From Aurantiochytrium sp. KH105 (Eukaryota > Sar > Bigyra > Thraustochytrida > Thraustochytriidae): a stretch of 64,000 nucleotides of DNA. This document shows positions 6,765 through 36,056 of the stretch, one piece after another; position 1 is the stretch's first letter, and each line of letters begins with the position of its first letter. The notes under the pieces are model-generated. The model saw only the letters and a list, made by a program, of their open reading frames with translations. It was not told the DNA's origin and made no database searches. The stretch is taken from assembly GCA_003116975.1 (NCBI GenBank), contig BGKB01000128.1, forward strand, positions 64,840 through 128,839, given 5' to 3'. A program made the position numbers and the translations under genes.

Positions 6765-9700
6765 ATGGATGCCCGCGGAGGCATGGCGGGCAAGGGCACG
6801 CAGCGCCGGCCGGCGCTCAGACTGACGGTGAACGCGACCTCCTCCTCCTCCTCCTCCTCATCGTCGTCGCCATCGCCGTCGTCGTCGCCGCCCGGATCCG
6901 CCCCGGCCTCGGCCGTGCCCGAGGTCGATGAGGTCGTGCGGAGGATCTTCAGCTCCGAGAAGCGCCAGCACCGCACCATCCGGAGACCCGCCGACCTGCG
7001 CGCCATGCTCGAAGACGTCGACACATTCCTGAAAAGATCGCCAAAATGGCAAATCGATATCCTGCGCGCCACGAACCGCGCCTTGCGCTCGCGATTTGAT
7101 GTCGCGCGCTTCGTCCTCATCGACAGCGCCCCGGACGACATCGAAATCCTCACGCCAGACGACGACAATGAATCCGCTGCCCTCGCCTCGTACGACGTCG
7201 GCGCGACGCAAGCGCAGCGCGGCCACAATGTTCTCTTTGCGGCCCTTTTACGCATGCACGACGGCCTCCTGCACAAATGGAAAAAAGAATCGGCCAAACG
7301 TGCAGCAGCATTGGGAACAGCAGATGATACCGCGCACAGTGCTACACAAGATGCTGCTGAGGCAGCCCCTCGTCGCCAGGATAAACTCCTGGATCTGCAT
7401 AGCGAGGCAGCAGACGCTGCGCTCGAGCTCCTGAGCAAGCTTATATCGGCCGGCACCACCGCGCAAAACGTGCGCGAGCTCTTGCAACGCAGCGCCCATG
7501 CCCTTGTCAAGCGCGACAGCAAGGCACAGTTGCGCTTCCTGCACACCATGGACCTGGCCATCCGCATGTCCGAGGCCGACCAGCGCTCCTCCTCCAGGAC
7601 CGACGCCGTTGATCTTGGTATCGATGCCGACATTGCCGTAGCCCTCGCGCTTCGCCCTAACGACCGCAAACCGTACGCGCTCCAGGTCTTTGAGGAAGGG
7701 GCTTCCAATGGCGGTCAGCTCTCCCCCGCGCTCGGGCTGTCGGACGCGCCGCGAACCGTGTCGCGCGCACCGAGTCCAGACTACGCATTTTTTAATTTTG
7801 GAGGGCCTGGCGCGGGCATCCAAATGAACACGCTCGACGCCTGGCCCTTCTCGCGCGAGTATTGCGTGTGGATGTGGATCCGAATCGAGGAAGAATGTGG
7901 ACGATGCAACTTGCTGAAACTCCGAAACGCCAAGGGACACGGAATCACCATCGAGCTCGGCGGCGACGACATCATCGGCTACTCAATCACCTGCGTCAGC
8001 AATGATGAGCGCACCTCAGGGAGCGTACGCGTGGGCATCCCGCCAGATCGTCTCTCGTCCCGGACATGGCACCAGATCACGATTCATCACTACTCGCGCT
8101 TGCTGGGCTCCAGTGTGCTGCGAGTCTTTGTCGACAATGTTGAGATCAAGCAGACCAACGGCTACAACTTTTCTCTTCCTTTTCCCGCCCGCGTCAAGGG
8201 CCCACTTCGTGACGCCGTCGCCTTTGAAAACTTTGACGGCCAGACGGGACCTCTGTACATTTTTCGCGAGGGGCTTACGCTCACCGCAGCGTCAGCGCTC
8301 ATGAAAATGCATCTCAATCGGGCCAAGGTTGGCTACAGCACGGCGGTCTCTGTCATCGCTGGTTCCGGACTTATCGCGAGTGCTCTGGACCGTGGCTTGG
8401 AAACAAAGGTATTCCTTGCATTTGACCCCATCTTTGTGGTTAGAGATCTTTGTCTTGAGGTGTATGGCGGCCGTCACGGTTCGCTTGCGTACAATTCGGC
8501 CGTTTGGAACGCCGACAACATCCGCAACCTCATTGGCACCGTTGGCGGCGTCCCTATTCTTCTTCCCTTTTTGTGGAAAAAGCTCGCGGCCGAGGATGTC
8601 GACGACAGTGGTGACCTGACCGAAGACGAAGACGCTGAAAACGAAAAGACCGCGGATGGCTCGCCGTCGCAGGCCGCGCCGGAACAATCCACGGAAAACG
8701 ACTCTTCTTCTGCTACAGAGGACGACGAAAAGTCCAAAGCGAAAACGAATGATGGCAAGCTCACGATTGACACGGGGCATTGCGCGCAGGCTGAAGAGTA
8801 CGACGCAGACAGCAGCAACGAAAGGGACAGCTCTGCAGAACACGCCGAGAGCAGCGGTGCGTCCTCAAGCACGGATTTACTGCCCGCTGGATGCTGCATC
8901 GTCCAAATCATTGGTCTTCTCGCGCGGACAATACGAAATCACGTCAACAATCAAATCGTCTTTCTCGAGCTGCAAGGCCCAGGTCTGATCGCATCCGCGC
9001 TGGAGCGGCTTCCTCGTCGAATCATTGCCAGCGCGGTAAGCCATCGTCTCCTCGTTGATACCTGCGGCGATGAAGATGACTGTTGTGGTAATGATTCTGG
9101 TGCACAAACCAATGGCGAACCGCACGTGGATGACATTGTGCCTGACGAAGTTTCTGGCGCCCCGCTTTTTGTCATGATGCACGCACTCCTGCGCGCGTCC
9201 ACAGGCTTCCCCTCGGTCGTCTTTGAGGAGTCCGTTCCAGTGGAAAGTAGTCTGCACGGAACGACAGTCAGTCTCTCCGACGCCGTCGATTTGCGGCAAC
9301 GAGAAACCGGTCAGGGTCCCCCGGCAGGCCAGCAGCAAATTCCAGCACCTGGAGCTTCCACGGCAAAGTTTAGGTACAATGAGCTCGAGCGAGCTCTTGA
9401 TCTGTCCTTGGTGTTCAACCTGAATATCATTGCGCGTTGCTCGTGCGCAGACGGCTCGCGGTCGTGGACGCAGATACAATGGTTTGACGAGGCTCACGCC
9501 CGCGTCGCCAAGGCACCTCGACTCTTCAAACAGGTTCTCGGACTTCAGCAGTGGGTTGACAACCTCCGCACCGTCTACGAGGATGTTTTCCTTGCCAATG
9601 CAATCGACGTAAGCCTGTCGACTACCAAGGACCTGCTCGACTTTATGGGCGCCCAATGGGTTCGGGTCGCCGCAGCCATGCTCTGCGAAGAGGTCACCGA

Positions 9701-12700
9701 GGAGGAACTGCGCATCATTGTTGCTGCTGCCATTGGCGCTGGCCACGCCCCACTTGGCGTATCTGCCCCGCTTGGCGCTGTCGAGCCGGACTCGCCGCTC
9801 CTCACATCTGTGATTGGATTACCGTTTTTCTCCATCGCCTCCAAGAACACCAAAGCAGACGAGGCCGGAGTTGGCTCACGTCCCAAACTACAAAAGTCGC
9901 CCATCTCCTCTGGCGGCCCCAACTCTCCTTCGGCATCCACACCTTGGAATATCGTCGACCTCTATCTCGCCCGTGACGCCATCCGTCTTCTCACGGTGCT
10001 CTTGCGTTCCACGCCGCCGCCGAAACGCTTCTTCGAGCATTGCGTCAAGCTCGATGGCAAGAGCGGTCTTGCCTCCGTGCTGGCCTTTAACGTTGTGGCC
10101 TCGCCACATGTTGGGGACGACTTGCGCGCTTTAGCCCTTCGATGCACCACCGAGTTCCTCCTTCGTGTCGAGCATCATGTCCCGCACCTGGATGGCTTCC
10201 TCGCACCTTCCCTTCGCCTCTTTACGGGGCCCGCCTTTGCTGCCTACTCGGGCAGCAAAGGTCACTTCTTCGCAAGCTCGAGCGGGCTCAATGTTTCTTC
10301 CTCAACTTCCGCAGGACCGGCAACAGCACTTCAGCAGGTTTCCCAGGGTGTGAAGGCCTTCGCCGATGCCGGAGGCTACAGTTTTCTGGTACACACACTT
10401 GCCAGTATCCTCACACCGTCAAATCCATCGTCAGCGCCTACGACGGCGTCATCCACAGCGGCAGGGGACAACACAACTGTTTTGAATCTCAATGCGACGT
10501 ACACTGCGCTCCTGGAAATGATGATCACGACCCCGCTCGACGATCGTGAACCGATCTCTCCATCCCAGCGTCTCATGGGTGTGCGTCCTCGCGGCAGCAT
10601 TGGTAGTTTTGGAAGTGGGTCCGTTCGTCGTAAGCAGAGCTCTGGATCAGGAAATTGGGGCATTGCGTCGTCTTCATCGAGCTTTCGGATGCACCGCTTG
10701 AGTTCCCTTGCCGTGGACATCGAGGATGCACCCGAGATGGTGGACGACTTATTCACTGAACAAGCCGACCTCGGCCCCATTCTGGACGACACGCAGGTGA
10801 TTCACAATCCGCATGCGCTCATGGTGATCCTCAAACTTCTTCCACGTCTCGACCTGTATCTGCAGCAACGAATCTGCCAAGATCTCTTTTTGCTGCTAAA
10901 GTTCCAGCCAATGAACCGTCTCTACTTTTGCGAGGTTCCTGGTTGGCAAGGGTCTTTTCTTGGCCTTTTGGGGTCTTTGGACAATCAGGGCCTGACGACC
11001 TCGGGAGCTCAAGTCTGTTTCGACCTCGGCGTCAAGCTTTATGTCCTCGTATTGCAAGACGTCCTCGTTGAACGCGTCAACGGATGGGAAGAACTTGAGA
11101 CGATGATGAGTCTGAAGCCACTGCTCGTTCGCGGCGACGAGGTCACGCGCTCCGTTCTTGCCCAGGTCATGGATGGGACCTTGCGCGAATTGCGTATGGA
11201 CATGCCGACGGACCCCGTTCGCCTCACGATTCTCTGGAAGAGCCTTCGCCGGTTAGTCCTGCTTCTCGACATGCTTTCAGGCCTGCTACCTAACAACGAT
11301 GCAGAAACGATGACGACCGTAGAACGCTTGCTCGACGCCATGGACCTTGTCACGTCTATTTCTCCGCATGCGCTTCTGCTCGATGGCGAGTCCGCGTCGC
11401 GCAGCGTCCGGGGAGACATGAGTGCGGTCGACCTCTGTCGCGAGTTCTGCTGGCCCGTAGACCCCCGGCAGCAGGATGAGCTCGATAAGCTGCGGGGCCC
11501 GGTCGCCTTTGCCATCATTTCACTTTCGCTCAGTGCCATGAAGAATTGCGCCATGGGTGCCCCTGCGTTGCGGAAACACGCGCGCCGGGTAACCAAGATT
11601 TGCTCCTTTTTACGGAGAATTCCGCGAATGAAGTCTTTGGTTCGTTGGCCCACGCGGCGCGGAAACAAAGTCAAGGGTGAGAAGAGCGCCTTGGTCATCA
11701 AGACTTTGGTTGATGCTTTTGCCATGATCAACCGCGTCGCCGAGTCCGGAAGCCACGAAGACGGTGCTGTCGCGCACAATTTGGACTACTTGCTCGAACT
11801 CGTGCGAACGGTCTCGACCACCCATAGCGACCTCATTGCACTTACTTGCGACGATGAGTTCTTTGTGCGAAAAATATCGTCGCTCAACGCCGACGGCCAG
11901 CATGGACCCGAGTGGATCTTCACCTCGGTGATCACGCACTCCCCTTTTCTGCAGGTTGACCAGGATGCCGGAGTCGCGTCTGCAAAGGGCGCAGATCAGG
12001 ATGTCGGCGCAGAGAGTGACAGCAGAACGAGCGAAACCGCGTCTCCGGCCACGGATGCCAGCGTGCGGTCTGACGCCGACACGCAGCAAGAAGAGACGGG
12101 CATTCCTGCGGCCCTTCACGCGCTTGAAGAAGCACGTCTAGGCATCAAAACGTTCATGGAGGCACGTCTTCGCTCACGATGGGACGAGCATGGCGCCTTT
12201 GAGATGATGATTGCCAATACGCAGGGACGGGCCCGGCGCGAGTCCATGGCGCTTGGATTCGCTCAGCGCCTCTCCTTTACGGAAAGGAGCAGACTTGCGG
12301 AGCGGTCCATTGCCGAGGCAGAGCACGAGCGCGAGCTTGTCGAGCTTTGGCGTCAGCTGACCATCGAGGCTGCGCACGAAGACTCCATCTGGCAGACTGA
12401 GCCCCCAGAGCAAGTGCGCGAATCTGTGCAGTGGATGCTCTCTGGACGCGAGGACAGGCTTCGATGCCGGCGACTTCTTTGCCGGAACTATCTCTTTGAT
12501 GATCACCAGGACGCCATCTATCATGAGGCACCGCGCGAACTTGATGACTCCCTCCTTGAGAGCGCTCACAGCAACGGCCTTCCGAGCCCTGCCCTCTTAG
12601 GCCCTGACACTGATCAGGAACTCGCACTCGTGGAGGACGACGATGAAGTTGCCCCTAGTACCGATGCTGAACATGAGTATGAGCTGGACGGTCGACGATC

Positions 12701-15700
12701 TATTCACCCTGGCATTGTGAGCGACAGCGCAAGACCGCGGGCGCGGACGGAGGAGGCATACTCGGACCATCTTTACGCAGTCGAAGTGGCAAGCTTTGGA
12801 AGTCGTCCCGGAAGCCCTGATTTGCTGTTGCGCCGTCGTCGATCGCGGCAGCGAACTGGGTCAGACCTCGGGTCCATCAGCCAAACTTCGGTTGACTTTC
12901 GTGACGGCGACGAAGACAACATGCTGCGGTGGTGGCGGTGGCTAGGCGGACGTTACGTAGGAGAGCCAGACTTGCAGTGGTTCGAGTGGCTCGGCGGCAT
13001 CGTTGTTGGCCCGCCACGACCTAGCTCCTGGCGACGCAGACGACCCAGTCTTCGCTGGCAGTTTGGACCTGGACGCGCTTCATTCCTCTCGCCGCCAGGA
13101 ACGCCCTCGCTTGCATCCCCAATGACCCCGCTCGGGCCTCTGGTGGTGGGCACCGTGGGCTATCCACCAGGTGGCGGGGCTGCCGCCATTCGTTCCCCGC
13201 TTCATGCGTCGCGCAAGGTCCCCGTGCTCCCAAGTTTGCGGAGCCCAATGCTCGGCAATGGCCTTGCCGGCATCGGTGGAGGCATCAGTCCCGGGCCGTC
13301 GAGCCCATTTGAGGCGGATCACGCATTGAGCCCAATGGCCGGAGGCCGCCCCCTGAGCCCCATCGGTTCGCCGCTGAGCCCTCAGGGCGGCGTTCGCCAT
13401 GGCGCCCCATTGAGCCCTCGGGGTGGTGGACCTGCGGGCTTCAACCTGATTTCCACACAGCCCCCGACCCCCCCAAACCTGATGTCGCGCAGCTTGAGCC
13501 CCAAGACACCGCGTATTCCCGCGAGTTCATTGCTCAACGAGGTGGACGACTGGGCCGTTCGAGGCTGGGTGAGCGGCCGGAGGGAACACTTTTCCCTGCG
13601 CAAGGGCGAGCAGCTCGTGCACGTGTGCTCGAATGCGCAGTGGATTACGCCTCTGGAAGTCACTCGCGGCAGGCTCGAACTGTCGTCGGAGCACATTTTC
13701 TTTTACGCCAACACGCCAAGCCAGGCCCAAATGCAGCAAGATGCAGCCGAGGGCGGCGGTCAGCGCGCAGAGAGGCCTGAACCGGGCTCGGCGGCCTCGC
13801 AGTCCGCGCCTGCGTGGGTCAATGACCTGAACATCATGGACCCATCTGGCGAAGGCACGGACCGTGACCGGGACGCCGCGAGCGAGACCAGCTCGAAGCG
13901 CCGGAAACGCCTGCAACACCAGAGCAAGGACATGATGCGATGGAATCTTGCCGAGCTGACTGAAGTTCATGGACGTCGATATCTGCTGCGCGCGACGGCG
14001 CTGGAGCTCTTTTTCTCGGATATGACGAACATTTTTCTTTGCTTCCCGTCGCCCAAGGCTCGTTCTGACTTTTTCAAGGCGATTCTCCGGCAACCGACAC
14101 CGAAGCTGGCGCGGACATTCAAGGAGAGTCTTAAACCAAATATTGTGTTCACCCGGTCGGGTCTCATGGAGCGCTGGAAGCGTCGTGAGATTTCCAACTT
14201 TGAATACATTATGCAGCTCAACACTATGGCAGGTCGGAGCTACAACGACATTACGCAGTACCCGGTCTTCCCCTGGGTTCTCACCGACTACGAGTCTGAG
14301 ACGATTGACCTCGAAGATCCAGCTGTATATCGTGACCTTTCCAAGCCGATTGGAGCACTCAACGAGATCCGCCTCCAGGACTTTGTTGAGCGTTTTGAAA
14401 CCTTTTGCGATGCGAGCATGGACATTCCTCCTTTTCACTATGGCAGTCACTACTCGAACGCAGGCATTGTTTTGCACTATCTTTTGCGCGTCGAGCCCTT
14501 TTCGACCTTGGCAATCGACTTGCAGGGTGGTCGTTTCGACTGCCCTGATCGCCTCTTCTTTTCCATCCAGGACTGCTGGCTGAGCAGCATGGAGTCCATG
14601 TCTGATGTGAAAGAATTGATTCCGGAATTCTTCTACTGCCCGGAAATGTTCCTCAACGAGAACGATTTTCACTTGGGCGTTCGCCAGGATACTAACACGG
14701 CGGTTAATGATGTGGTACTGCCACCATGGGCAAAAGGATCGGCGCATGAGTTTGTCCGCATTCAGCGTGAAGCTCTCGAGTCCGACTACGTGTCGGAGCA
14801 CCTGCACGAATGGATCGACCTCATCTTCGGTTACAAACAACTTGGCGAAGCAGCAGAGGACGCCCACAATGTCTTTTACTACCTTACGTACGAGGGTGCC
14901 GTCGATTTGGACGCCATTGTGGATCCGGTCTTGCGCCACTCCATCGAGACGCAAATCGCTCACTTTGGGCAGACGCCTGCGCAGCTCCTCTCGCAGCCGC
15001 ACCCAGCCCGCGGCAAGGCGCCAGACACTCTTGCTTTAAGCCGCGAAACCATCACCAAGGGCGGGGCTCTGCAGGTCGCGCGTCACGCCGTTTGGACGGA
15101 GCCTGCCAATGCGTCATCTGTGATGCCGGCGTCGGCGCCGCGCTCGCCGAGTGCGGGGAGCTCTGGACCCCTCAGTGCCGTCGCAGCCGAGGCAGCAGCC
15201 TCGCTGGTTTCGCCCACGAAGCCAACGTCCTCGTGGGGCTCGTTCTTCAAATCAGCGCGGACACCACGAGTCACTGCAGGTGCAAACAAGGCGGCAGCAG
15301 GAGGCGATTCCGCAGCGACGGTTGACCCTGGTGCCGCAGAGGCCGCCTCGCCCGCCGGCGCACATAGAGGCTCTGGAACGACCGCTGCAAGTCTTGCGAG
15401 CGCCAACAGCAGCGCTGCGGGAAGCAAGAGCCTTGCAGCTTCCGCCCTGGCGTCTGCAGCCTCGGCTGCGTCCTCGGGAGTATTGCCACGCACGCCGCCT
15501 GTCATTTCGCTGACAGCATATTCAGATCGCGTCGTCGCCGTGTACGAGGATCTCAGTGTAGCTGTACATCGCGTCTCAGCCAAGACATGGACGCCCAAGG
15601 CCGGGAATCCGCGTGTACTGACGAGTGCTCCGCTCTCGCTTTCTGCCTGGGCGCGGCCTTGCGACCGGGGTCTGCTGTCCACGAGCATAGGCAAGACAAT

Positions 15701-16694
15701 GCGCGTTGGCAGCGAGACCGTCGCGTGCGCCAAGCAGGGCAAGCTCGTCGTCAGTGCCAACTTTATGGACTGGTCTCTCCGTGCTCAAAATGTGGATAAC
15801 TATCGCGTGGACGGCGCCGTCGTGGCCCATCGCGGTCGTGTTCTTTGCGTTGCAATTTGCGAAAAGGAAGAGGTCCTCGTGACTGGCGGCCAGGACTGTC
15901 GCGTGGTCGTTTGGCGTCTCGGCGGCGCGCACGATATCCGCGACGAGATGATGGATCTCTTTGGGGCCCCGGAGTTGGCCACGAGCGCCGCCTCCAACAC
16001 TGGCGCCGCGGGTAGCGCTGGCGTCGGAGGAGGTGCTTCAGGGCGCCCGAGCGCCATTTCGATTGCCGATGGCACCAAAGATAACGCCACATTGCTCACA
16101 TCTGCTGCAGCGACGGCTGGAACGGCAGCTGGATTCGGCGGTTCGGACGGGCTTCTCATCGCGCAGGGTGCTCTACTAGGCCACAGCACACCTGTGACAG
16201 CGGTTGCTGTCTCGAGCGGCTTATCCATTGTTGTGAGCGGCTCAGAACACGGTCAAGTGCTTCTTCACACCCTGAGTGACGGAGCCTTTGTTCGTAGCAT
16301 GCAGGATCCCATTCATTCCTCGATATCGCGGATTCTAATTGGCAGATTCACTGGCAACATTCTCATTCATGCTGCTGGCTGCGCATCGACGCGCAGCTTT
16401 TCGGTGAATGGAGTATCGCTGGCGCAAACTTTTGATCTGGAGAACATATCGGCCCTTGAGGTCGCATACCTTGAGGGTTTTGGCACCGAAGTCGTGCTTG
16501 TTGGCACTACGCAAGGAGAACTGCTCTTTCTACGTTTTAGCTCCCTCGAGCCTTTGCGCGAGGGCATTAGTCTCGGAAGCAATTCGCCTGTTCGTTCGAT
16601 TGAGGTCGCACCTTCTCAGGTAGCCATCCTTGTCGGAACGGAAGACGGACAAATTGCCGTCGTTCGCGCCGCGGACCCAATGCAGCTGGCATAA
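6765..16694 (+). CDS. Giant BEACH-domain protein, neurobeachin/LRBA type
   Basis: 3,309 aa in one uninterrupted frame. BEACH proteins are large scaffolds for vesicle traffic, endolysosomal fission and receptor sorting. Domains in order: helical N-terminus; ConA-like lectin/LamG-like module at about 340-505 (FSREYCVWMWIRIEEE, RTWHQITIHHYS); long armadillo-like/DUF4704-type region; acidic and phospho-rich linker; Ser-Pro-rich linker at about 2100-2250; PH-BEACH domain at about 2265-2450; BEACH domain at about 2465-2755 with the hallmark PPFHYGSHYSNAGIVLHYLL; and C-terminal WD40 repeats at about 2980-3309. The lectin-DUF-PH-BEACH-WD40 order is that of neurobeachin and LRBA. An in-frame Met six codons downstream (6783) is an alternative start. 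A clustered tryptophan segment (RWWRWLGGRY) lies near residue 2055. The poly-Ser run after the start is encoded by TCC repeats. Confidence 0.92.
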   Translation: MDARGGMAGKGTQRRPALRLTVNATSSSSSSSSSSPSPSSSPPGSAPASAVPEVDEVVRRIFSSEKRQHRTIRRPADLRAMLEDVDTFLKRSPKWQIDILRATNRALRSRFDVARFVLIDSAPDDIEILTPDDDNESAALASYDVGATQAQRGHNVLFAALLRMHDGLLHKWKKESAKRAAALGTADDTAHSATQDAAEAAPRRQDKLLDLHSEAADAALELLSKLISAGTTAQNVRELLQRSAHALVKRDSKAQLRFLHTMDLAIRMSEADQRSSSRTDAVDLGIDADIAVALALRPNDRKPYALQVFEEGASNGGQLSPALGLSDAPRTVSRAPSPDYAFFNFGGPGAGIQMNTLDAWPFSREYCVWMWIRIEEECGRCNLLKLRNAKGHGITIELGGDDIIGYSITCVSNDERTSGSVRVGIPPDRLSSRTWHQITIHHYSRLLGSSVLRVFVDNVEIKQTNGYNFSLPFPARVKGPLRDAVAFENFDGQTGPLYIFREGLTLTAASALMKMHLNRAKVGYSTAVSVIAGSGLIASALDRGLETKVFLAFDPIFVVRDLCLEVYGGRHGSLAYNSAVWNADNIRNLIGTVGGVPILLPFLWKKLAAEDVDDSGDLTEDEDAENEKTADGSPSQAAPEQSTENDSSSATEDDEKSKAKTNDGKLTIDTGHCAQAEEYDADSSNERDSSAEHAESSGASSSTDLLPAGCCIVQIIGLLARTIRNHVNNQIVFLELQGPGLIASALERLPRRIIASAVSHRLLVDTCGDEDDCCGNDSGAQTNGEPHVDDIVPDEVSGAPLFVMMHALLRASTGFPSVVFEESVPVESSLHGTTVSLSDAVDLRQRETGQGPPAGQQQIPAPGASTAKFRYNELERALDLSLVFNLNIIARCSCADGSRSWTQIQWFDEAHARVAKAPRLFKQVLGLQQWVDNLRTVYEDVFLANAIDVSLSTTKDLLDFMGAQWVRVAAAMLCEEVTEEELRIIVAAAIGAGHAPLGVSAPLGAVEPDSPLLTSVIGLPFFSIASKNTKADEAGVGSRPKLQKSPISSGGPNSPSASTPWNIVDLYLARDAIRLLTVLLRSTPPPKRFFEHCVKLDGKSGLASVLAFNVVASPHVGDDLRALALRCTTEFLLRVEHHVPHLDGFLAPSLRLFTGPAFAAYSGSKGHFFASSSGLNVSSSTSAGPATALQQVSQGVKAFADAGGYSFLVHTLASILTPSNPSSAPTTASSTAAGDNTTVLNLNATYTALLEMMITTPLDDREPISPSQRLMGVRPRGSIGSFGSGSVRRKQSSGSGNWGIASSSSSFRMHRLSSLAVDIEDAPEMVDDLFTEQADLGPILDDTQVIHNPHALMVILKLLPRLDLYLQQRICQDLFLLLKFQPMNRLYFCEVPGWQGSFLGLLGSLDNQGLTTSGAQVCFDLGVKLYVLVLQDVLVERVNGWEELETMMSLKPLLVRGDEVTRSVLAQVMDGTLRELRMDMPTDPVRLTILWKSLRRLVLLLDMLSGLLPNNDAETMTTVERLLDAMDLVTSISPHALLLDGESASRSVRGDMSAVDLCREFCWPVDPRQQDELDKLRGPVAFAIISLSLSAMKNCAMGAPALRKHARRVTKICSFLRRIPRMKSLVRWPTRRGNKVKGEKSALVIKTLVDAFAMINRVAESGSHEDGAVAHNLDYLLELVRTVSTTHSDLIALTCDDEFFVRKISSLNADGQHGPEWIFTSVITHSPFLQVDQDAGVASAKGADQDVGAESDSRTSETASPATDASVRSDADTQQEETGIPAALHALEEARLGIKTFMEARLRSRWDEHGAFEMMIANTQGRARRESMALGFAQRLSFTERSRLAERSIAEAEHERELVELWRQLTIEAAHEDSIWQTEPPEQVRESVQWMLSGREDRLRCRRLLCRNYLFDDHQDAIYHEAPRELDDSLLESAHSNGLPSPALLGPDTDQELALVEDDDEVAPSTDAEHEYELDGRRSIHPGIVSDSARPRARTEEAYSDHLYAVEVASFGSRPGSPDLLLRRRRSRQRTGSDLGSISQTSVDFRDGDEDNMLRWWRWLGGRYVGEPDLQWFEWLGGIVVGPPRPSSWRRRRPSLRWQFGPGRASFLSPPGTPSLASPMTPLGPLVVGTVGYPPGGGAAAIRSPLHASRKVPVLPSLRSPMLGNGLAGIGGGISPGPSSPFEADHALSPMAGGRPLSPIGSPLSPQGGVRHGAPLSPRGGGPAGFNLISTQPPTPPNLMSRSLSPKTPRIPASSLLNEVDDWAVRGWVSGRREHFSLRKGEQLVHVCSNAQWITPLEVTRGRLELSSEHIFFYANTPSQAQMQQDAAEGGGQRAERPEPGSAASQSAPAWVNDLNIMDPSGEGTDRDRDAASETSSKRRKRLQHQSKDMMRWNLAELTEVHGRRYLLRATALELFFSDMTNIFLCFPSPKARSDFFKAILRQPTPKLARTFKESLKPNIVFTRSGLMERWKRREISNFEYIMQLNTMAGRSYNDITQYPVFPWVLTDYESETIDLEDPAVYRDLSKPIGALNEIRLQDFVERFETFCDASMDIPPFHYGSHYSNAGIVLHYLLRVEPFSTLAIDLQGGRFDCPDRLFFSIQDCWLSSMESMSDVKELIPEFFYCPEMFLNENDFHLGVRQDTNTAVNDVVLPPWAKGSAHEFVRIQREALESDYVSEHLHEWIDLIFGYKQLGEAAEDAHNVFYYLTYEGAVDLDAIVDPVLRHSIETQIAHFGQTPAQLLSQPHPARGKAPDTLALSRETITKGGALQVARHAVWTEPANASSVMPASAPRSPSAGSSGPLSAVAAEAAASLVSPTKPTSSWGSFFKSARTPRVTAGANKAAAGGDSAATVDPGAAEAASPAGAHRGSGTTAASLASANSSAAGSKSLAASALASAASAASSGVLPRTPPVISLTAYSDRVVAVYEDLSVAVHRVSAKTWTPKAGNPRVLTSAPLSLSAWARPCDRGLLSTSIGKTMRVGSETVACAKQGKLVVSANFMDWSLRAQNVDNYRVDGAVVAHRGRVLCVAICEKEEVLVTGGQDCRVVVWRLGGAHDIRDEMMDLFGAPELATSAASNTGAAGSAGVGGGASGRPSAISIADGTKDNATLLTSAAATAGTAAGFGGSDGLLIAQGALLGHSTPVTAVAVSSGLSIVVSGSEHGQVLLHTLSDGAFVRSMQDPIHSSISRILIGRFTGNILIHAAGCASTRSFSVNGVSLAQTFDLENISALEVAYLEGFGTEVVLVGTTQGELLFLRFSSLEPLREGISLGSNSPVRSIEVAPSQVAILVGTEDGQIAVVRAADPMQLA

Positions 16695-17197
16695 TTCCTC
16701 GCTTCTTTCAAGTTTTGAATATCTCAGTCCATGCGGCAATGATCGATGAAAAAATAATTTTAGTGTGTCTCTTTGGGGGGTGCTCAAACATGTTTATATG
16801 GTCTTTGACGGTGCCGCAATTTCTGATACTTTTGCGCTTTTAGATCGCGCGCAATTCTTGCTTTTGTTCACATGACTTTATCTATGAATATCGAAGTAAT
16901 GAGTTTGGTCTCACTGCGCCACGTTTCGTAAATCTGTCGCACTTCGCTTTGATCTGACTCGTTGCTCACAAAGTTCTACGCGAGCTTGAAAAGCCTCATT
17001 CGGGTTCCCGATCTCAATGTATCAAGCCGCAGTGGATCAGAGTGAGACGCCATTTTTTTTGCATTCGCCTCGCGTTCTTAGATAATTGCCTCATGGCCAG
17101 CTCTTATGCGTTCCTTTCCCAAGGTCATGATCATCAATGTGGAGGTATTAAACATGTTTCAACTTTGCTTATGTACAGTTTGTGTCCTAAGACTACT
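16695..17197. other. Convergent intergenic stretch; left edge of duplicated unit
   Basis: Holds the 3' ends of the BEACH gene and of the first minus-strand secreted gene. From about 16945 the sequence aligns with 19845 onward (shared phrases such as TTGATCTGACTCG and ATCAAGCCGCAGTGG) at visibly lower identity than the coding parts. Nothing else recognised. Confidence 0.6.
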
Positions 17198-17965
17198 CTA
17201 GCAGTTCTTCGCGTAGCACTTTGCCTTGGAGGACGGCTTGTACGCGCCAATGTATCCGCGGTACAGTTCGCAGCGACCTGCACCCTCCTCAATGTGAGTA
17301 CCCCATTGAAGGTTGTCAGGGTTGATCGGCTTGAACTCGTAGTACTTGCACCACTCGTAGCCCGTGCAGGCTTCGCGGCACTTGTCCTCCACACACGGCT
17401 TGTCCTTGTTGCAGTACGTCTTGTAGTCTCCCAGGCCGTACGGGGTGCCGTCGTGGTCGTAGGCCTCACGGCAGTAGCCATTGCCAACAAGCTTGTACTC
17501 ACACGTTGGCTCGGGCTCCGGCCGGGGAGGCGTAAAGCACTCGCTCTTGTCTGCCGTCTTGTACGCTTCGTAGCACTCGACGCCATGCTTGGCCTTGTAG
17601 GCGCCCACTTCGCCGCGATGCACCTCGCACGTCTTGCGATGGCTACGGCTGTCGTACTCCCAGCCGGTGCAGTCTTCGTCTTCGTAGCAGAGCATGGCGC
17701 ACTCGCTTTTGGACTCGATATGCTTGTAGAGGTTGAAGGTTCCGGTTCCAACAGGGTTGCCGTAGTGGTCGACCTTCTCACGGCAAAAGCCGTCGCCGAG
17801 CTTCTTGAAGGCCAAGCAGATGGGCTTGTGCGGGTGCGAGGTGAGCTTGCGGGAGTCTTGCAAAGTGGTCTGAGCCTTGGATCGCAGGCTGGCTGCCTCG
17901 CCCATGGTGGCGAGAACGGCCATGACGAGGACGAGAAGAATGCTGGCTCGCATGTTCATCTCCAT
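17198..17965 (-). CDS. Secreted two-module cysteine-rich protein, copy A1
   Basis: 255 aa from the first of three clustered in-frame ATGs (17965, 17959, 17953). The third gives MRAS, the start shared with the plus-strand paralogue. The frame stays open further upstream to 18124, but that stretch is Lys/Arg/Thr low complexity and precedes the obvious signal peptide (RASILLVLVMAVLATMGEA). The mature protein has two related modules of about 100 residues. Each begins with a G-x-G-[FY]-C-R-E motif (GDGFCREKVDHYGNP; GNGYCREAYDHDGTPYG) and ends near GAYK...CY. Six to eight cysteines per module suggest disulfides. The fold resembles apple/PAN-like secreted modules, but I cannot assign a family. It shares its upstream region with a divergent paralogue. 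Role unknown; extracellular adhesion or ligand binding is a guess. Confidence 0.8.
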   Translation of the reverse strand: MEMNMRASILLVLVMAVLATMGEAASLRSKAQTTLQDSRKLTSHPHKPICLAFKKLGDGFCREKVDHYGNPVGTGTFNLYKHIESKSECAMLCYEDEDCTGWEYDSRSHRKTCEVHRGEVGAYKAKHGVECYEAYKTADKSECFTPPRPEPEPTCEYKLVGNGYCREAYDHDGTPYGLGDYKTYCNKDKPCVEDKCREACTGYEWCKYYEFKPINPDNLQWGTHIEEGAGRCELYRGYIGAYKPSSKAKCYAKNC

Positions 17966-18675
17966 CTTTCTGTTCCTTTTCCCTTTTCCTTGCTTTGCGG
18001 TGGTTTCGCTTTGTGTTTTTTGGCTTGAGGTTTGCTTTGAGGTTTGTTTTGAGGTTCTGGTTCTGGTTGTCGTCTGTCTCGCAACGGGCCTTCGAGCCCT
18101 CGCGCACGATGCCAGAAGTGTCACTTCACTTCATCTTCACTGATCGACTGGCTCGTCTGCCTCTTCCCTTATTGGGAGCGAGTCGAGTAAGTGGTGACCA
18201 ACGCATGACTTCGCTGGCCGATGCGATGAGATCAAAGCTGCCACTGCGTGGACGTGAGCGCGTATACGTGGAGTCACAGCCTGTGCATGGACGGCGGAGC
18301 CGAGCTGTACGATGCACGCGAGGCCAACGCCATGGCCCTTGCGTACATGAACTCGAAGGAGCGCCCGATGCGAGGAAAGAGGGAAGGAAGACAAAGCTGT
18401 CTGGCTATCGCTACCTAATAACCCAGTAGGAGGGTGCTAGTGAGGGCTGGCCGGTGTGTGCTGGGGTCCGGCTCTGTAACTTGGAACATGGTTGAGATAA
18501 AAGGGAACGTAGCAAGCGGACGATGGGCTCATCGGCCTCGATCACCCCAAGCTGCCGAGCATCAGCAAAACGCAAACGACAAGCCTCAACAGACACTGCA
18601 AGCCTCAACAAAGCCTATAAAGCAAATCTCAGCAACAGCAAATAGTCCCAAGAAAGGAACCTCAAAACAGAAAGA
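17966..18675. promoter_or_regulatory. Bidirectional promoter of secreted gene pair, copy 1
   Basis: 710 bases between head-to-head ATGs. From 18026 to 18836, which reaches into the plus-strand coding region, it is identical by eye to 20932-21742. A pyrimidine-rich tract on the plus strand (17966-18025) next to the minus-strand start differs between copies. A TATA-like element precedes the plus-strand gene. Short open frames here are identical in both copies only because the DNA is. Confidence 0.75.
18616..18622 (+). promoter_or_regulatory. TATA-like box (TATAAAG)
   Basis: TATAAAG lies 54 bases before the ATG at 18676 and sits just after two CAAGCCTCAACA direct repeats (about 18580 and 18599). 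The spacing would give a very short 5' UTR. The same element is in copy 2. Confidence 0.5.
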
Positions 18676-19407
18676 ATGCGCGCAAGTGCCCTCTTCGTCC
18701 TCGTCTTGGCCGTCCTCGGCGCCTCAGCCCAGGCTTCCAACGCCACAGAAGCCAAGACCAAGACCATCAAGCACGCACAGCCGACTTGCCTCGCCTTTCG
18801 CAAACTCGGCAATGGCTTTTGCCGCGAGAGGTACGATGCGCACGGCAAGCCAGTCGGCAAGGGCGACTTTGAGCTCTACCAGCACGTGGCCACCAAGTCG
18901 GACTGCGCCGACCTCTGCTACGAGCAAGGTACTGCATGCACCGGGTACGAGTACAACGCACACAAGGAGAAGTGCGAGATCCACCACGATTACGTCGGCG
19001 CCTACAAGAAGGCAGACGGCAACGAGTGCGTCCAGGCGTACATGACGTCCAACTGGAAAAAGTGCCACGTCAAGCCTCCTGTGGACCCTGCGCCCGAAGA
19101 CGAATACGAGCTCGTCGGTCATGGCTTTTGCCGCGAAGAGTACGATCACTGGGGCTACCCGTACGGCAGCGGCGAGTACAAAACGGAGTGCAACGCCAAG
19201 AAGCCGTGCACCGAGTACGAGTGCCGCAAGGCGTGCTCGGACTATGACTGGTGCAAGTACTACGAGTTTCAGGACATTGACCCGATGTACGTGCCGGAGG
19301 GCTCTTACATTGAGGACGGTCACGGGCGCTGCGAGCTGCACAAGGAGGACATGGACGCGTACCAGGCGTCGTCGAAAGCCGTGTGCTACAGGAAGCGACA
19401 GGCGTGA
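18676..19407 (+). CDS. Secreted two-module cysteine-rich protein, copy B1
   Basis: 243 aa. The signal peptide is MRASALFVLVLAVLGASAQA, cleaved about residue 20 and followed by a potential N-glycosylation site (SNAT). Two modules follow: about 33-128 (LGNGFCRERYDAHGKPVG ... VGAYKKADGNEC) and about 134-240 (VGHGFCREEYDHWGYPYG ... CELHKEDMDAYQ). Order and cysteine spacing match the minus-strand partner, so the pair arose by inverted duplication of one ancestor. It differs from its tandem copy at three residues by eye (G/S in GKPVxKG; Y/F and K/Q around TExECRxACS). No membrane segment after the signal, so secretion is predicted. Confidence 0.85.
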   Translation: MRASALFVLVLAVLGASAQASNATEAKTKTIKHAQPTCLAFRKLGNGFCRERYDAHGKPVGKGDFELYQHVATKSDCADLCYEQGTACTGYEYNAHKEKCEIHHDYVGAYKKADGNECVQAYMTSNWKKCHVKPPVDPAPEDEYELVGHGFCREEYDHWGYPYGSGEYKTECNAKKPCTEYECRKACSDYDWCKYYEFQDIDPMYVPEGSYIEDGHGRCELHKEDMDAYQASSKAVCYRKRQA

Positions 19408-20097
19408 CATCTGAGGCTCGCACGAGGCATCAATGTAAATTTCCGGATACCGGATAAGAACCAAACAATGTACATACACTTCTGCTTTTGTTTTCATTTT
19501 TACTTTGGGGGCTAATCGCGAAGACAACACACGGACGCCCGCGAGACATGGCTTGCAATCGAGAGCGTAGCATTTGAGATAGAGACATCCGCTCTTGCAT
19601 GGCCTTCCAATTGAAAGACGTCGATTATGTCGTTACTTTGCTGTTCGCCGTACGCGATCAGTTTGTCTTTGGCATGGAAGACATTCGTTCATGTGTAACA
19701 TTGTCTTTGAGAGAAACTTGTACGCTGTGTAAGTCACTACTCATGTCGGCACTTACGAACGATTCAACAGGTGCAGATGACACCTGCATCCATAAGCGTT
19801 TGGGACGCGTGAAGCTACCATTCGCTCGCAGATATCTTGCCTGGCATCCGCTTTGATCTGACTCGTCGCTCACAAACTTCTACGCAAGCTTGACAAGGCT
19901 CATTGGGTTTTCGATCTCCATGCATCAAGCCGCAGTGGGTCTGAATGAGACACTCCGTACTCTTGCGTTCATCTCAGTGTCATCGATGATGGCCACAAGA
20001 CCTCCTCTTCGAGTTCCCTTTCCCCAAGGTGATGATCATCAATGTGGAAGTATAAAACATGACTTTCTTTATGTACAGTTTGTGTTCAAAGACTACT
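19408..20097. other. Spacer between duplicated units
   Basis: Holds the 3' UTR of copy B1, a unique stretch of about 410 bases (19436-19845), then the diverged left flank of unit 2 with the 3' UTR of copy A2. No further gene recognised. Confidence 0.6.
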
Positions 20098-20865
20098 CTA
20101 GCAGTTCTTCGCGTAGCACTTTGCCTTGGAGGACGGCTTGTACGCGCCAATGTATCCGCGGTACAGCTCGCAGCGACCTGCACCCTCCTCAATGTGAGTA
20201 CCCCACGGAAGGTTGTCAGGGTTGATCGGCTTGAACTCGTAGTACTTGCACCACTCGTAGCCCGTGCAGGCTTCGCGGCACTTGTCCTCCACACACGGCT
20301 TGTCCTTGTTGCAGTACGTCTTGTAGTCTCCCAGGCCGTACGGGGTGCCGTCGTGATCGTAGGCCTCACGGCAGTAGCCATTGCCAACAAGCTTGTACTC
20401 ACACGTTGGCTCGGGCTCCGGCCGGGGAGGCGTAAAGCACTCGCTCTTGTCTGCCGTCTTGTACGCTTCGTAGCACTCGACCCCGTGCTTGGCCTTGTAG
20501 GCGCCCACTTCGCCGCGATGCACCTCGCACGTCTTGCGATGGCTACGGCTGTCGTATTCCCAGCCGGTGCAGTCTTCGTCTTCGTAGCAGAGCATGGCGC
20601 ACTCGCTTTTGGACTCGATATGCTTGTAGAGGTTGAAGGTTCCGGTTCCAACAGGGTTGCCGTAGTGGTCGACCTTCTCACGGCAAAAGCCGGCACCGAG
20701 CTTCTTGAAGGCCAAGCAGATGGGCTTGTGTGGGTGCGAGGTGAGCTTGCGGGAGTCTTGCAAGGTGGCCTGGGCCTTGGAGCGCAGGCTGGCTGCCTCG
20801 CCCATGGTGGCGAGAACGGCCATGACGAGGACGAGAAAAATGCTGGCTCGCATGTTCATCTCCAT
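20098..20865 (-). CDS. Secreted two-module cysteine-rich protein, copy A2
   Basis: 255 aa from the first ATG of the cluster (20865); the MRAS start is at 20853. Near-identical tandem copy of the gene at 17198-17965, with the same signal peptide, two G-x-G-[FY]-C-R-E modules and the same C-terminus (CYAKNC). By eye four residue changes separate them: L/F in the signal peptide, T/A in KAQxTLQ, D/A in LGxGFC and Q/P in NPDNLxWG. I count roughly 15 base differences over 768, many synonymous, so the protein looks constrained and both copies look intact. Confidence 0.8.
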   Translation of the reverse strand: MEMNMRASIFLVLVMAVLATMGEAASLRSKAQATLQDSRKLTSHPHKPICLAFKKLGAGFCREKVDHYGNPVGTGTFNLYKHIESKSECAMLCYEDEDCTGWEYDSRSHRKTCEVHRGEVGAYKAKHGVECYEAYKTADKSECFTPPRPEPEPTCEYKLVGNGYCREAYDHDGTPYGLGDYKTYCNKDKPCVEDKCREACTGYEWCKYYEFKPINPDNLPWGTHIEEGAGRCELYRGYIGAYKPSSKAKCYAKNC

Positions 20866-21581
20866 CTTTCTTTTCTTTTTCCTTTTCCTTTTGCTTTTGC
20901 TTTGGGGTGGTTTTGCTTTGTGTTTTTTGGCTGAGGTTTGCTTTGAGGTTTGTTTTGAGGTTCTGGTTCTGGTTGTCGTCTGTCTCGCAACGGGCCTTCG
21001 AGCCCTCGCGCACGATGCCAGAAGTGTCACTTCACTTCATCTTCACTGATCGACTGGCTCGTCTGCCTCTTCCCTTATTGGGAGCGAGTCGAGTAAGTGG
21101 TGACCAACGCATGACTTCGCTGGCCGATGCGATGAGATCAAAGCTGCCACTGCGTGGACGTGAGCGCGTATACGTGGAGTCACAGCCTGTGCATGGACGG
21201 CGGAGCCGAGCTGTACGATGCACGCGAGGCCAACGCCATGGCCCTTGCGTACATGAACTCGAAGGAGCGCCCGATGCGAGGAAAGAGGGAAGGAAGACAA
21301 AGCTGTCTGGCTATCGCTACCTAATAACCCAGTAGGAGGGTGCTAGTGAGGGCTGGCCGGTGTGTGCTGGGGTCCGGCTCTGTAACTTGGAACATGGTTG
21401 AGATAAAAGGGAACGTAGCAAGCGGACGATGGGCTCATCGGCCTCGATCACCCCAAGCTGCCGAGCATCAGCAAAACGCAAACGACAAGCCTCAACAGAC
21501 ACTGCAAGCCTCAACAAAGCCTATAAAGCAAATCTCAGCAACAGCAAATAGTCCCAAGAAAGGAACCTCAAAACAGAAAGA
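20866..21581. promoter_or_regulatory. Bidirectional promoter of secreted gene pair, copy 2
   Basis: Second copy of the head-to-head promoter. 20932-21742 matches 18026-18836 without a visible mismatch. The pyrimidine-rich tract at 20866-20931 differs in length and sequence from copy 1. Confidence 0.75.
21522..21528 (+). promoter_or_regulatory. TATA-like box (TATAAAG), copy 2
   Basis: Same element and spacing as at 18616, 54 bases before the ATG at 21582. Confidence 0.5.
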
Positions 21582-22313
21582 ATGCGCGCAAGTGCCCTCT
21601 TCGTCCTCGTCTTGGCCGTCCTCGGCGCCTCAGCCCAGGCTTCCAACGCCACAGAAGCCAAGACCAAGACCATCAAGCACGCACAGCCGACTTGCCTCGC
21701 CTTTCGCAAACTCGGCAATGGCTTTTGCCGCGAGAGGTACGACGCGCACGGCAAGCCCGTCAGCAAGGGCGACTTTGAGCTCTACCAGCACGTGGCCACC
21801 AAGTCGGACTGCGCCGACCTCTGCTATGAGCAAGGCACTGCATGCACCGGCTACGAGTACAACGCACACAAGGAGAAGTGCGAGATCCACCACGATTACG
21901 TCGGCGCCTACAAGAAGGCAGACGGCAACGAGTGCGTCCAGGCGTACATGACGTCCAACTGGAAAAAGTGCCACGTCAAGCCTCCTGTGGACCCCGCGCC
22001 CGAAGACGAATACGAGCTCGTCGGTCATGGCTTTTGCCGCGAAGAGTACGATCACTGGGGCTACCCGTACGGCAGCGGCGAGTACAAAACGGAGTGCAAC
22101 GCCAAGAAGCCGTGCACCGAGTTCGAGTGCCGCCAGGCGTGCTCGGACTATGACTGGTGCAAGTACTACGAGTTTCAGGACATTGACCCAATGTACGTGC
22201 CGGAGGGCTCTTACATTGAGGACGGTCACGGGCGCTGCGAGCTGCACAAGGAGGACATGGACGCGTACCAGGCATCGTCGAAGGCCGTGTGCTACAGGAA
22301 GCGACAGGCATAG
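21582..22313 (+). CDS. Secreted two-module cysteine-rich protein, copy B2
   Basis: 243 aa, tandem copy of the gene at 18676-19407 with the same signal peptide and both cysteine-rich modules. I count about a dozen base differences, all after position 21743; the first 161 coding bases are identical to copy 1. The stop differs (TAG here, TGA in copy 1) because the last codons and 3' flank have diverged. No sign of decay, so both copies are probably functional. Confidence 0.85.
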   Translation: MRASALFVLVLAVLGASAQASNATEAKTKTIKHAQPTCLAFRKLGNGFCRERYDAHGKPVSKGDFELYQHVATKSDCADLCYEQGTACTGYEYNAHKEKCEIHHDYVGAYKKADGNECVQAYMTSNWKKCHVKPPVDPAPEDEYELVGHGFCREEYDHWGYPYGSGEYKTECNAKKPCTEFECRQACSDYDWCKYYEFQDIDPMYVPEGSYIEDGHGRCELHKEDMDAYQASSKAVCYRKRQA

Positions 22314-22647
22314 GCTCGAGGCATTAAAATGGAATCTTTAGCTGAACAGTGTATATATGAATTTCTCATTTTCCAAAGATTGTTGCGAGCTGCGCGAGAG
22401 ATTTTTCGCTTCAAAAATCAGATTCTTCAGCAGAGACTATCTTGGTATGTCACCCGGTAATAAGCAAAAGATGAAACACTCGGCCATCTTCCTTGGTTTG
22501 AGTCATAGTCAGAGACGTAGGTGGCGCTCGAACACACAGCTTTCATTCGAAGTCCCTTCCCTGTATGTTTACGGAGAAGCTCAGCCGGTCAAAGTACAAA
22601 TATCTCGCAATCTCCAAGATTCCGTTTTTCAGTGTGACCATCATTTT
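22314..22647. other. Convergent 3' intergenic stretch
   Basis: About 330 AT-richer bases between convergent genes. Nothing recognised beyond presumed 3' UTRs. Confidence 0.5.
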
Positions 22648-32080: not shown

Positions 32081-35000
32081 TTAGAGAGCAAATCCGTCCA
32101 TGGACCAGGGGATAACATCCGAGCACATGTCAGGGTCGGTTCTGTCCATGCGGCCTGCGCTGACCTTTGCGAGGTGAGACTTGTCGAAAATCCTGAGAAC
32201 GTTGGCGGCGCTCTCGCGCCAGCGCTCATCTTGAACGCGGTAGCAATCCGACTTTGCCCAATCGACGGCAAGCATACGCGTTGGGTCGTTCGGGCCAAGC
32301 GAGATCCACTCGGTTAGAAGCGGATTGAAGGCGTATATGATGCGATAGGGGGTGTCCGCATGGTGCGTAAAGTCCACCTCGGAGATCTTGGCAGGAAACC
32401 AGCCCACCGGATTTCCCGCAGGATACTCGAGCCTGGACATGACGATAGTGCCAGCCGTATACACTGCAACGCGATCCTTGATGACGCGCTCACTTTTCAC
32501 GAGACGGAGCTCCACACCGTCGCCAGAGCACAGCGGACAGATGAATTCACGCATCCTCTCGCCGTCTCGCTGCGAAATGTCAAAGTCAAAACAGCGTGGG
32601 TGGATCCACCCATTGCAAGCCCCAGTCGCCTTGGAGCACTGCAGATACCACCTACCCTCGCCCTCCATCTCGCTATCGTAGCCTTCGGACTCGCTGGCCG
32701 CCGCACTAGCATCATCATCTCCGTTGCGACGCTGACACATGCAATACATTTTCGAATCATTCGTCTGCCGCGGCGTATTCAAGGCTGCGCGCCCCGCCAA
32801 CTTGCGACGCTTGCGCTTCTTGCGCCCAGGGCCCGCGCGACTGCTGACGCTTTGCGTTTCGTCTTCCTCGAGCGCAGTGTCGCCTTCGCCAGCAGCGTCC
32901 TCGGCCGCAGCCGATGTTGCTTGCGGGCGCCACTGCAAATGAGGGGCCTCGAGGTACTGATGCGAAGCAAGTTCGTCTTCTCGGGCGGTCAGGGCAGGCG
33001 GAGGCTGTTTCTTGGCGCGGAGCGCACGGATCTCCGAAAGCAGAGAATAGCTCTCTTTCATTTTTTGCTGCCGACGCGACTCACGCACGGAGCGGTAGAG
33101 CTTGCGATACACGTGCAGGTTTTCAAAGCTTGTCTCCTCATTATCCTCGTCAATGCCGCTACGCATGTCGTCATCGTCGTCGTCATCGTCGTCCATGTTG
33201 TTTTGGTCCTGATCGTCTTTGTTGCCTCGGCCCGCCTCCCCACTATCGCGGTCATCATCGCCGCCAGCACCACTACCGTTGCCACTTCCTGTTTCTGTAA
33301 TCGCCGCCGCGGATCCGGGGGGAATGTAAAAGATTGAGTACCAGCCCGAGTCTGACCGAACGTTCGGATTCACGCGCCGCTTAATTTCGATTGACCACAG
33401 CGAGGGACTCGCGTACTCGCCGTCCGTTACGCAGTCAACAATGATACCATCGGTGCGAAGATCTGCCCAAAACTCGCGCCCCTTGTAACGTACGCGCAGC
33501 ACACGTTTGCCGGGCCGCAAGACCTCTGCGTCAATCAGATTCTTCATGGTTTCATCCTTTTTCGAGCTGCGCACAGCCGGGAGCGGGCCAGCATTAGCCA
33601 GCTTGACGCCTGGAGGGAGGCGCGAGGCATCTTCGTCTTCGAGCTCGCTATCACTCTCAATCTGCAGCTCAAAAAACCCTTGTTGGCGCGTCGCCTGCTG
33701 GCGTGTCGAGATGCGTCCGCCGCCGCGGCGCGAGCCCGGCTCTGCGCTCGACCATGGAGCCGTAGTAGTCGCTGGGCCTTGACCTGCGACGCCAAGATTT
33801 GCGACGCTGCTCCGAGTGGAAGATCCAAAGTTCGCAGGGAGCGAGGTCGAACACATTGAGTTCGTACGCTGCAGGTTGGCGCCAGAGGAAGTGCTGGCTA
33901 CTGCCCCAGTCGTCACAGAGGATCGCCGCGAGGCGCGACCGCTGGGCGCTGCATCGCCAGCGATGATTGGCTTCCCCGCGGGCGCGCCGGCGGCACCCTG
34001 CTCGGCGAGCTCTAGAGCCTGCTTCTTTTCCTGATACCTTGCCCGAATAGAGTCGAGAGTCTTGCCACGAAACACAATCGAGAGCCAGCCATTGTCCCCA
34101 CTCAGCTTCGGGTTCGTTTTGCGCTTGCAGTGCACGCTAAAGCTGGACACCGAGTCAAAGACGATCCCGTCGCAAAGAATAGTACCATCCGGATTCAAGG
34201 TCGCCTGGGTCAGGTTGTTCTGATACTCGACCAGCAAGACACCCTCGCCAGGCTCCAGAAACCCAAGCTTGATCATATCGAGCAGAATACCGGGCACGTT
34301 CTTTGGTGTGCGAAGAGGAGTCGTCGCGCCCGAGGAGCTTCCGGCGAGGATGCCCGTTCCGACACCGGTATCAAGGTTACTTGGGCGTGCCCCCGCACCG
34401 TTCTCGGCCAAATCTGTTCCTCGCGGCGACATGTCTCCGCCATGCCCATCTTCATCGGCAGCATTGTATTCAGGGGGTAAGCCCGCGTTTGTCCCCTCTG
34501 TGACAAAAGCCTTCCAGCGGGCGTACTCGGGCATATCCTTGTACTGCTTGTAATAGTACGCGATGAGGTCGTGCGGAGACTTGCCGTTGTTGCGGAAGAT
34601 CGGGTCATTCCTATAGATTGAAATGAAGTCCTTTAGACTCTCGTACATGCCCTTGTTGAAAGCGCGGCGTTCAGCGGGCGTCCAGTCGAGGGTCGTGTCG
34701 GCGCGATCGTCCGCGTCGATGGGCAGGGGTTCTGGTTCGTTGTGCATGAGCTTGTTCCACGCCCCGATGCTGCCCTTACCCTTGCCCACCAGCAGAGGGT
34801 CCTTCACCTTTCGGAGCATTGCTGGAATTTCCACCTGAAAGTCGTTACCCACACGAGCGCCAGGGCCTTGCGGCAGAATTGTACCGCCATCTTTGATCGC
34901 ACCAGGAGGCATCCCTGCGTTGGCATCAAGTTCTTTCAGGGCAGCGAGATCGTCCTTGAGCGCCGCAGACGTGCTGTCTGCGGCCGAGGATCCGATAGAG

Positions 35001-36018
35001 TTGCGTCGGCTTGCTCGTCCGCCTCGCTCGCTGCCCTCGCCAGGAAGGCCACTGCGACTGACCTCATGTCCAGCCGCTCGGTCCTTTGATGCGAGCGCGC
35101 TGTCGGCTTCGTCATTGTTCTTGTCGTTCTTGGTATTATCAATGTTGTCGGCACGCTCATCGTCGTCGTCGTCGTCTTCCATCGCGTCACCATCATCACC
35201 CTTGCGAGAGCGGCTACTACGCCTGCGACGCTTGCCATCCGCAGGGTCCGCATCAGCGGAAGCTTCGCCCGAAAGATCGCGATGGCCTCCGATGGCCACC
35301 GCCGCCGCTGCGTCTGCGGCGCTATCGGTGGAGCGTTTACGCTTCGCCACTACGCGCGGAGACATGACGTGCGGGTGGTGCTTGTCGCTGTCGAAAATCG
35401 ATGCCCCTCCGGGCGGTTTGCGCACCGACTTGGAAGGCTCATTGGGAAATGGGCATTCGTTCGCCGTGCGCACGGTTTCGCTGGTGGGCGGGCCCGCGCC
35501 AAAGACGGGTGATTGCGATCGTGAAGCTGCGAGAATGTCGCCTGGCATGCTCGAGCCGTCGTCGCTGCGCCGCGGGGACCCCTCGCCAGGGGCACGTTCG
35601 CCTCGCACAGCAGAGTTCCACGAAAAGACGGTCTCGTCCTTATGGTCCATGCCACCCACTGCGCCGGCGGACCCGCTTCCAGACTGCGCAGAGAGTCTTC
35701 GCTGCCTCGGGGACATCCCGTTCCAGATACGTGGGGACCCTCCCAAAAGCATGCGGCTACTTGAACCAGGAGAGAGACTTCCGTGGCGCTGGCGCGGATG
35801 AGCAGTCCCTGCAGGAGGCTCGTCGATGGCCCACTGTGCGCTGGACGTGCGTTCAAGTGGCGCAAGTGCCAAGTCTTCTGTCTCTGACTTGGTTCCGACA
35901 CGAGCCAGGCCTGTATCCTCCTTTACAGCAGCACTTGCGGCATTTGAAGCTGCAGTTGCGGCATCAGCAGCTGCAGGAAGACTTGCATCAGCCGCTTTGG
36001 TCGTTTCGGCAGCATCGT

Positions 36019-36056
<38 letters not shown>

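Follow-up and report, generated by a model that had tools for sequence, protein, structure and literature searches.

A recent gene-conversion tract as the probable origin of an identical 811-bp stretch shared by tandem head-to-head gene pairs

Two direct repeats, each with a head-to-head gene pair, share an exact stretch of 811 bp in their middle, with sequence that has diverged between the copies on either side. This pattern is truly present in the sequence as given. The identical stretch covers most of the spacer between the divergent genes and runs into the coding region of the plus-strand gene. It is probably best explained by a recent interlocus gene-conversion tract within an older, partly homogenised repeat.

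Self-comparison of the 64-kb window, i.e. the whole stretch of DNA analysed, shows the repeat. In direct orientation and 2900-2906 bp apart, units A and B align at 96.2% (2469 columns, blastn), as expected from an earlier note on this DNA, which had described tandem copies of a head-to-head gene pair. Each unit carries a minus-strand gene of 251 aa and a plus-strand gene of 243 aa, with a distance from start codon to start codon of 722 bp in unit A and 728 bp in unit B. The units and their genes are as follows.

16945..19407: first tandem unit (A), with left outer flank, minus-strand gene, spacer and plus-strand gene; direct repeat with 19849-22313
17198..17953, minus strand: minus-strand gene of unit A, 251 aa; PAN_1 22.6 bits against a cut-off of 21.4; apparent signal peptide (by eye)
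18676..19407, plus strand: plus-strand gene of unit A, 243 aa; PAN_1 21.9 bits against a cut-off of 21.4; apparent signal peptide (by eye)
19849..22313: second tandem unit (B); direct repeat with 16945-19407
20098..20853, minus strand: minus-strand gene of unit B, 251 aa; PAN_1 23.6 bits; 15 substitutions from the unit A copy
21582..22313, plus strand: plus-strand gene of unit B, 243 aa; PAN_1 23.0 bits

Judging by its gene content the window is eukaryotic. It may come from a heterotrophic protist poor in introns, for example a thraustochytrid. Directly upstream of the locus lies a gene for a BEACH/WD40 protein of 3309 aa (6765-16694). A dihydrouridine synthase and a Tubby-family protein are also encoded, together with an eIF3i-like protein that scores below the cut-off of its model, and both strands carry long uninterrupted reading frames. 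Among those on the minus strand, a frame of 581 aa at 24164-25909 matches LPMO_10 (lytic polysaccharide mono-oxygenase) with 28.1 bits against a cut-off of 23, a frame of 1579 aa at 32081-36820 contains two RAMA-domain stretches, and a frame of 1008 aa at 57145-60171 matches the Frizzled cysteine-rich (Fz) domain with 27.7 bits, below the cut-off of 32.1.

The four gene products of the locus look like PAN-domain proteins that are apparently secreted. All of them start with MRAS followed by a hydrophobic stretch which, by eye, resembles a signal peptide. PAN_1 (PF00024) exceeds its curated cut-off of 21.4 in all four proteins, if barely (21.9-23.6 bits), while PAN_4 and PAN_3 matches in two of the four stay under their cut-offs. 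Thus the proteins resemble known PAN/Apple domain proteins (PF00024, PF14295) in being cysteine-rich, apparently secreted and above the PAN_1 cut-off in every case, but differ from them by scores that are marginal (PAN_1) or below cut-off (PAN_4, PAN_3). AlphaFold2, run on four sequences, reached a mean pLDDT of only 35, too low for the model to be used. For P0002, the one of the four proteins that was searched against the PDB, no relative was found by sequence. Neither were relatives of P0002 confirmed in viral contigs, prokaryote genomes and phages, nor a relative of alignment A1 in viral contigs, these collections being ill suited to a eukaryote. The two genes within a pair are old paralogues, with 126 of 241 aligned residues identical and a dS of about 1.1.

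The units were aligned globally. The earlier note had given 811 bp without any difference, and this figure is exact to the base. Differences are not evenly spread along the alignment: there is a single exact run of 811 columns, and the next longest comprises 148. The parts of the locus that bear on its extent are listed below.

18026..18836: identical tract, unit A copy; spacer (650 bp) plus the initial 161 bp of the plus-strand coding region; exact run of 811 columns
20932..21742: identical tract, unit B copy; matches 18026..18836 without difference
17954..18025, minus strand: 5' leader of the unit A minus-strand gene, adjoining its start codon; diverged between the units, 79 columns containing 7 substitutions and 8 gap columns
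16945..17197: outer flank on the left, on the 3' side of the minus-strand gene; homologous and diverged, with 50 substitutions in 247 aligned sites and 8 gap columns

The tract ends sharply. The closest difference events are located at 18025, 18007 and 17998 on the left and at 18837, 18852 and 18856 on the right. Hence the tract stops 72 bp before the minus-strand start codon and 161 bp (53 codons) inside the plus-strand coding region, and no functional landmark is evident at either end. When all 37 difference events were placed randomly over 2214 columns, a run of at least 811 was obtained in none of 200,000 shuffles (longest 789). Placing only the 28 coding events yielded such a run in 13 of 200,000 shuffles, and weighting by silent sites in none of 100,000, whether the diverged 5' leader was included or left out. 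The possibility that the tract stems from a mobile insertion was considered and is unsupported, given that the tract enters the plus-strand coding region in register in both units and that the spacer has no further match elsewhere in the 64-kb window using blastn.

Outside the tract most differences between the coding regions are synonymous. The minus-strand genes differ by 15 substitutions in 756 bp (11 synonymous, 4 non-synonymous) and the plus-strand genes beyond the tract by 13 in 568 (10 synonymous, 3 non-synonymous), or, counting the stop codon, 15 in 571. These values are close to the approximately 15 in 768 and 12 in 571 counted by eye before. The corresponding dS is 0.073 for the minus-strand gene and 0.099 for the plus-strand gene outside the tract, with dN of 0.005-0.007. 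Within the tract, the 650 bp of spacer and the 161 bp of coding sequence are both free of changes. Taking 2% divergence as a yardstick, the earlier note expected 16-18 changes in the tract. This measure is too mild: purifying selection holds coding differences down, so that 2% understates the contrast with a silent divergence of 7-10%. If the 650-bp spacer were neutral and evolved at the rate of synonymous sites, about 47-64 changes would be expected in it. Pooling spacer and synonymous sites, silent changes amount to 0/689 in the tract vs. 21/266 outside (Fisher, p = 1.2e-12). For the tract, silent divergence has a 95% upper bound of 0.43%, i.e. about 4-6% of the value in the adjoining genes. 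When non-coding sequence is compared with its immediate neighbour, changes amount to 0/650 for the spacer in the tract vs. 7/71 for the leader next to the minus-strand start codon (p = 7e-8).

Such a pattern might also arise with no exchange of sequence between the units, if a shared bidirectional promoter together with the 5' end of the plus-strand gene were under strong purifying selection. The tract does span most of the spacer between the divergent genes. Moreover its synonymous sites alone (0/39) are not significantly depleted (p = 0.063 vs. the rest of the plus-strand gene, p = 0.088 vs. both genes), so the in-tract synonymous depletion is by itself only suggestive. Selection would however have to hold all 650 spacer bases and yet spare the 72 bp beside the minus-strand start codon, and the right end of the tract lies 161 bp inside a coding region where no landmark is seen. 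Tract borders inside a leader and inside a coding region are allowed by recombination and are not predicted by promoter selection. The earlier note had left the choice between conversion and promoter selection undecided. Based on the silent sites and the sharp ends conversion is the better supported of the two, whereas selection alone fits poorly and has in our view only a very small probability.

The outer flanks are far more diverged than the rest of the units, as had been noted by eye. On the left side divergence is 20%, which is above that of the synonymous sites in the coding regions (p = 6e-5). For the right outer flanks, beyond the plus-strand stop codons, the alignment of A and B is no better than that of shuffles. 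The view that non-coding DNA is the most conserved part of the repeat is therefore not correct in general, since non-coding DNA outside the tract is less conserved than any other part. Overall the locus appears layered, from zero divergence in the tract over 7-10% at silent sites of the coding regions and 20% in the left outer flank to a right outer flank that is not alignable. As the left flank exceeds the coding regions in divergence and the right flanks cannot be aligned, we infer that the coding parts were themselves homogenised at an earlier time.

The tract might also be an assembly error. A direct repeat of 2.9 kb is a classic site for errors in which the assembler, gap-filling or polishing copies the middle of one unit into the other or merges reads of both, and copying by software would be expected to leave an exact run longer than a short read. 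A false duplication of two haplotypes was considered as a simple form of such an error. It is disfavoured, because the outer flanks align no better than shuffles and because a silent divergence of 7-10% is high for alleles. Altogether we consider an assembly error unlikely, though it is the main rival of conversion.

Reciprocal unequal crossing-over in a once larger array, followed by loss of copies, might likewise have left the same middle in both units, and direct repeats 2.9 kb apart can cross over unequally. However, this would require at least two exchanges ending near 18026 and 18836 plus the loss of the intermediate copies, and no remnant of a further copy is found in the self-comparison of the 64-kb window. 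This scenario seems very improbable.

Gene conversion would account for the layers as follows. An ancestral gene for a PAN-like secreted protein would have been duplicated long ago, giving rise to an inverted, head-to-head pair, and this pair would later have been duplicated in tandem to form units A and B. The units would then have exchanged sequence by non-reciprocal homologous recombination, i.e. interlocus gene conversion, to which direct repeats at a distance of 2.9 kb are well suited. The coding regions of both units would have been homogenised at an earlier time, and the tract would be the youngest layer. In the latest event about 811 bp, comprising most of the spacer and the first 53 plus-strand codons, would have been copied from one unit to the other, too recently for any change to have accrued. 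Which unit served as donor is not indicated by the changes, since they polarise evenly: with its partner in the pair serving as outgroup for each gene, the 28 coding changes outside the tract were assigned to A in 10 cases and to B in 11, with 7 unclear.

The spacer was further inspected for sequence features.

18019..18056: 12-bp tandem repeat across the left end of the tract
18045-18057 and 18657-18669: inverted match, perfect over 13 bp, between the two divergent leaders, both copies being oriented alike relative to the start codon
18241-18386, plus strand (same in unit B): stretch with coding-like codon use, stop near 18417
18616..18621, plus strand: TATAAA, sole match to TATA[AT]A on either strand within 17950-18690

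The 12-bp tandem repeat is a possible end point of recombination. TATAAA at 18616 is a possible candidate for the TATA box of the plus-strand gene. As to a putative bidirectional promoter, the head-to-head arrangement and this single motif are the only features seen. The 13-bp match of the leaders was reached in 5 of 1000 dinucleotide shuffles and the score of their best local alignment by 1 of 500 mononucleotide shuffles. This lends weak support to a common leader element that both genes may have kept, and some conserved element of this kind would also be in line with selection on the promoter.

The stretch at 18241-18386 was considered as a candidate for a hidden third gene in the spacer. 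It scored 0.28 bits per codon when read from 18241 and 0.30 from 18260, compared to a shuffle mean of -0.11 (sd 0.12) and a best value of 0.289 for the 18241 stretch in 2000 shuffles. Little can be read into this score, since presumed intergenic control stretches elsewhere reached 0.22 and 0.32. The deduced peptide has no Pfam match. Its one PDB match (whole-sequence E 0.011, best stretch alone E 11) and a weak tblastn match within the 64-kb window, antisense to the upstream large gene (E 0.008), were both regarded as chance matches. Units A and B have the same sequence here, so that the stretch offers no substitution pattern. The presumed intergenic region 45785-46000, with 0.32 bits per codon, is possibly an unlisted exon.

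The earlier note regarded the conversion tract as centred on the promoter. This is right with respect to position, but neither a promoter role of the spacer nor a targeting of conversion to it is indicated. A more far-reaching version would be a concerted evolution of bidirectional promoters, where conversion is repeatedly drawn to the spacer such that a single regulatory region, perhaps including a small coding element near 18241-18386, is maintained in both pairs and their secreted products and outer flanks diverge. We regard this as quite unlikely.

An identical tract with sharp borders, embedded in direct repeats that have otherwise diverged, is what interlocus (ectopic) gene conversion between tandem duplicates looks like, and a length of some hundreds of bases falls within the range usual for conversion tracts. 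Different from this familiar picture, the tract described here covers the spacer of a divergent pair, making the non-coding part look more conserved than the genes, and is seen in one genome. A close published parallel was not found in the literature searched, as far as the accessible parts of the sources go; in the available part of PMC12221091 the whole-word counts for "pan" and "apple domain" are both zero. The nearest system is the mouse major urinary protein (Mup) cluster, which likewise consists of tandem genes for secreted proteins where the authors inferred that conversion reshuffles promoters and coding sequences (PMC4777540). In that cluster identical exon 1 sequences are combined with divergent promoters, which is the reverse of the pattern seen here, and the study concerns many copies in a mammal with population data (PMC4777540).

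The mechanism as such is well known and ordinary, and the locus would be a clear example of it. If real, it would be a clean natural case of a regulatory spacer that is younger than the coding sequence surrounding it. It would further serve as a warning that high identity of non-coding DNA between duplicates does not necessarily reflect constraint. Finally, it would provide a small locus for measuring conversion tracts in a eukaryotic microbe.
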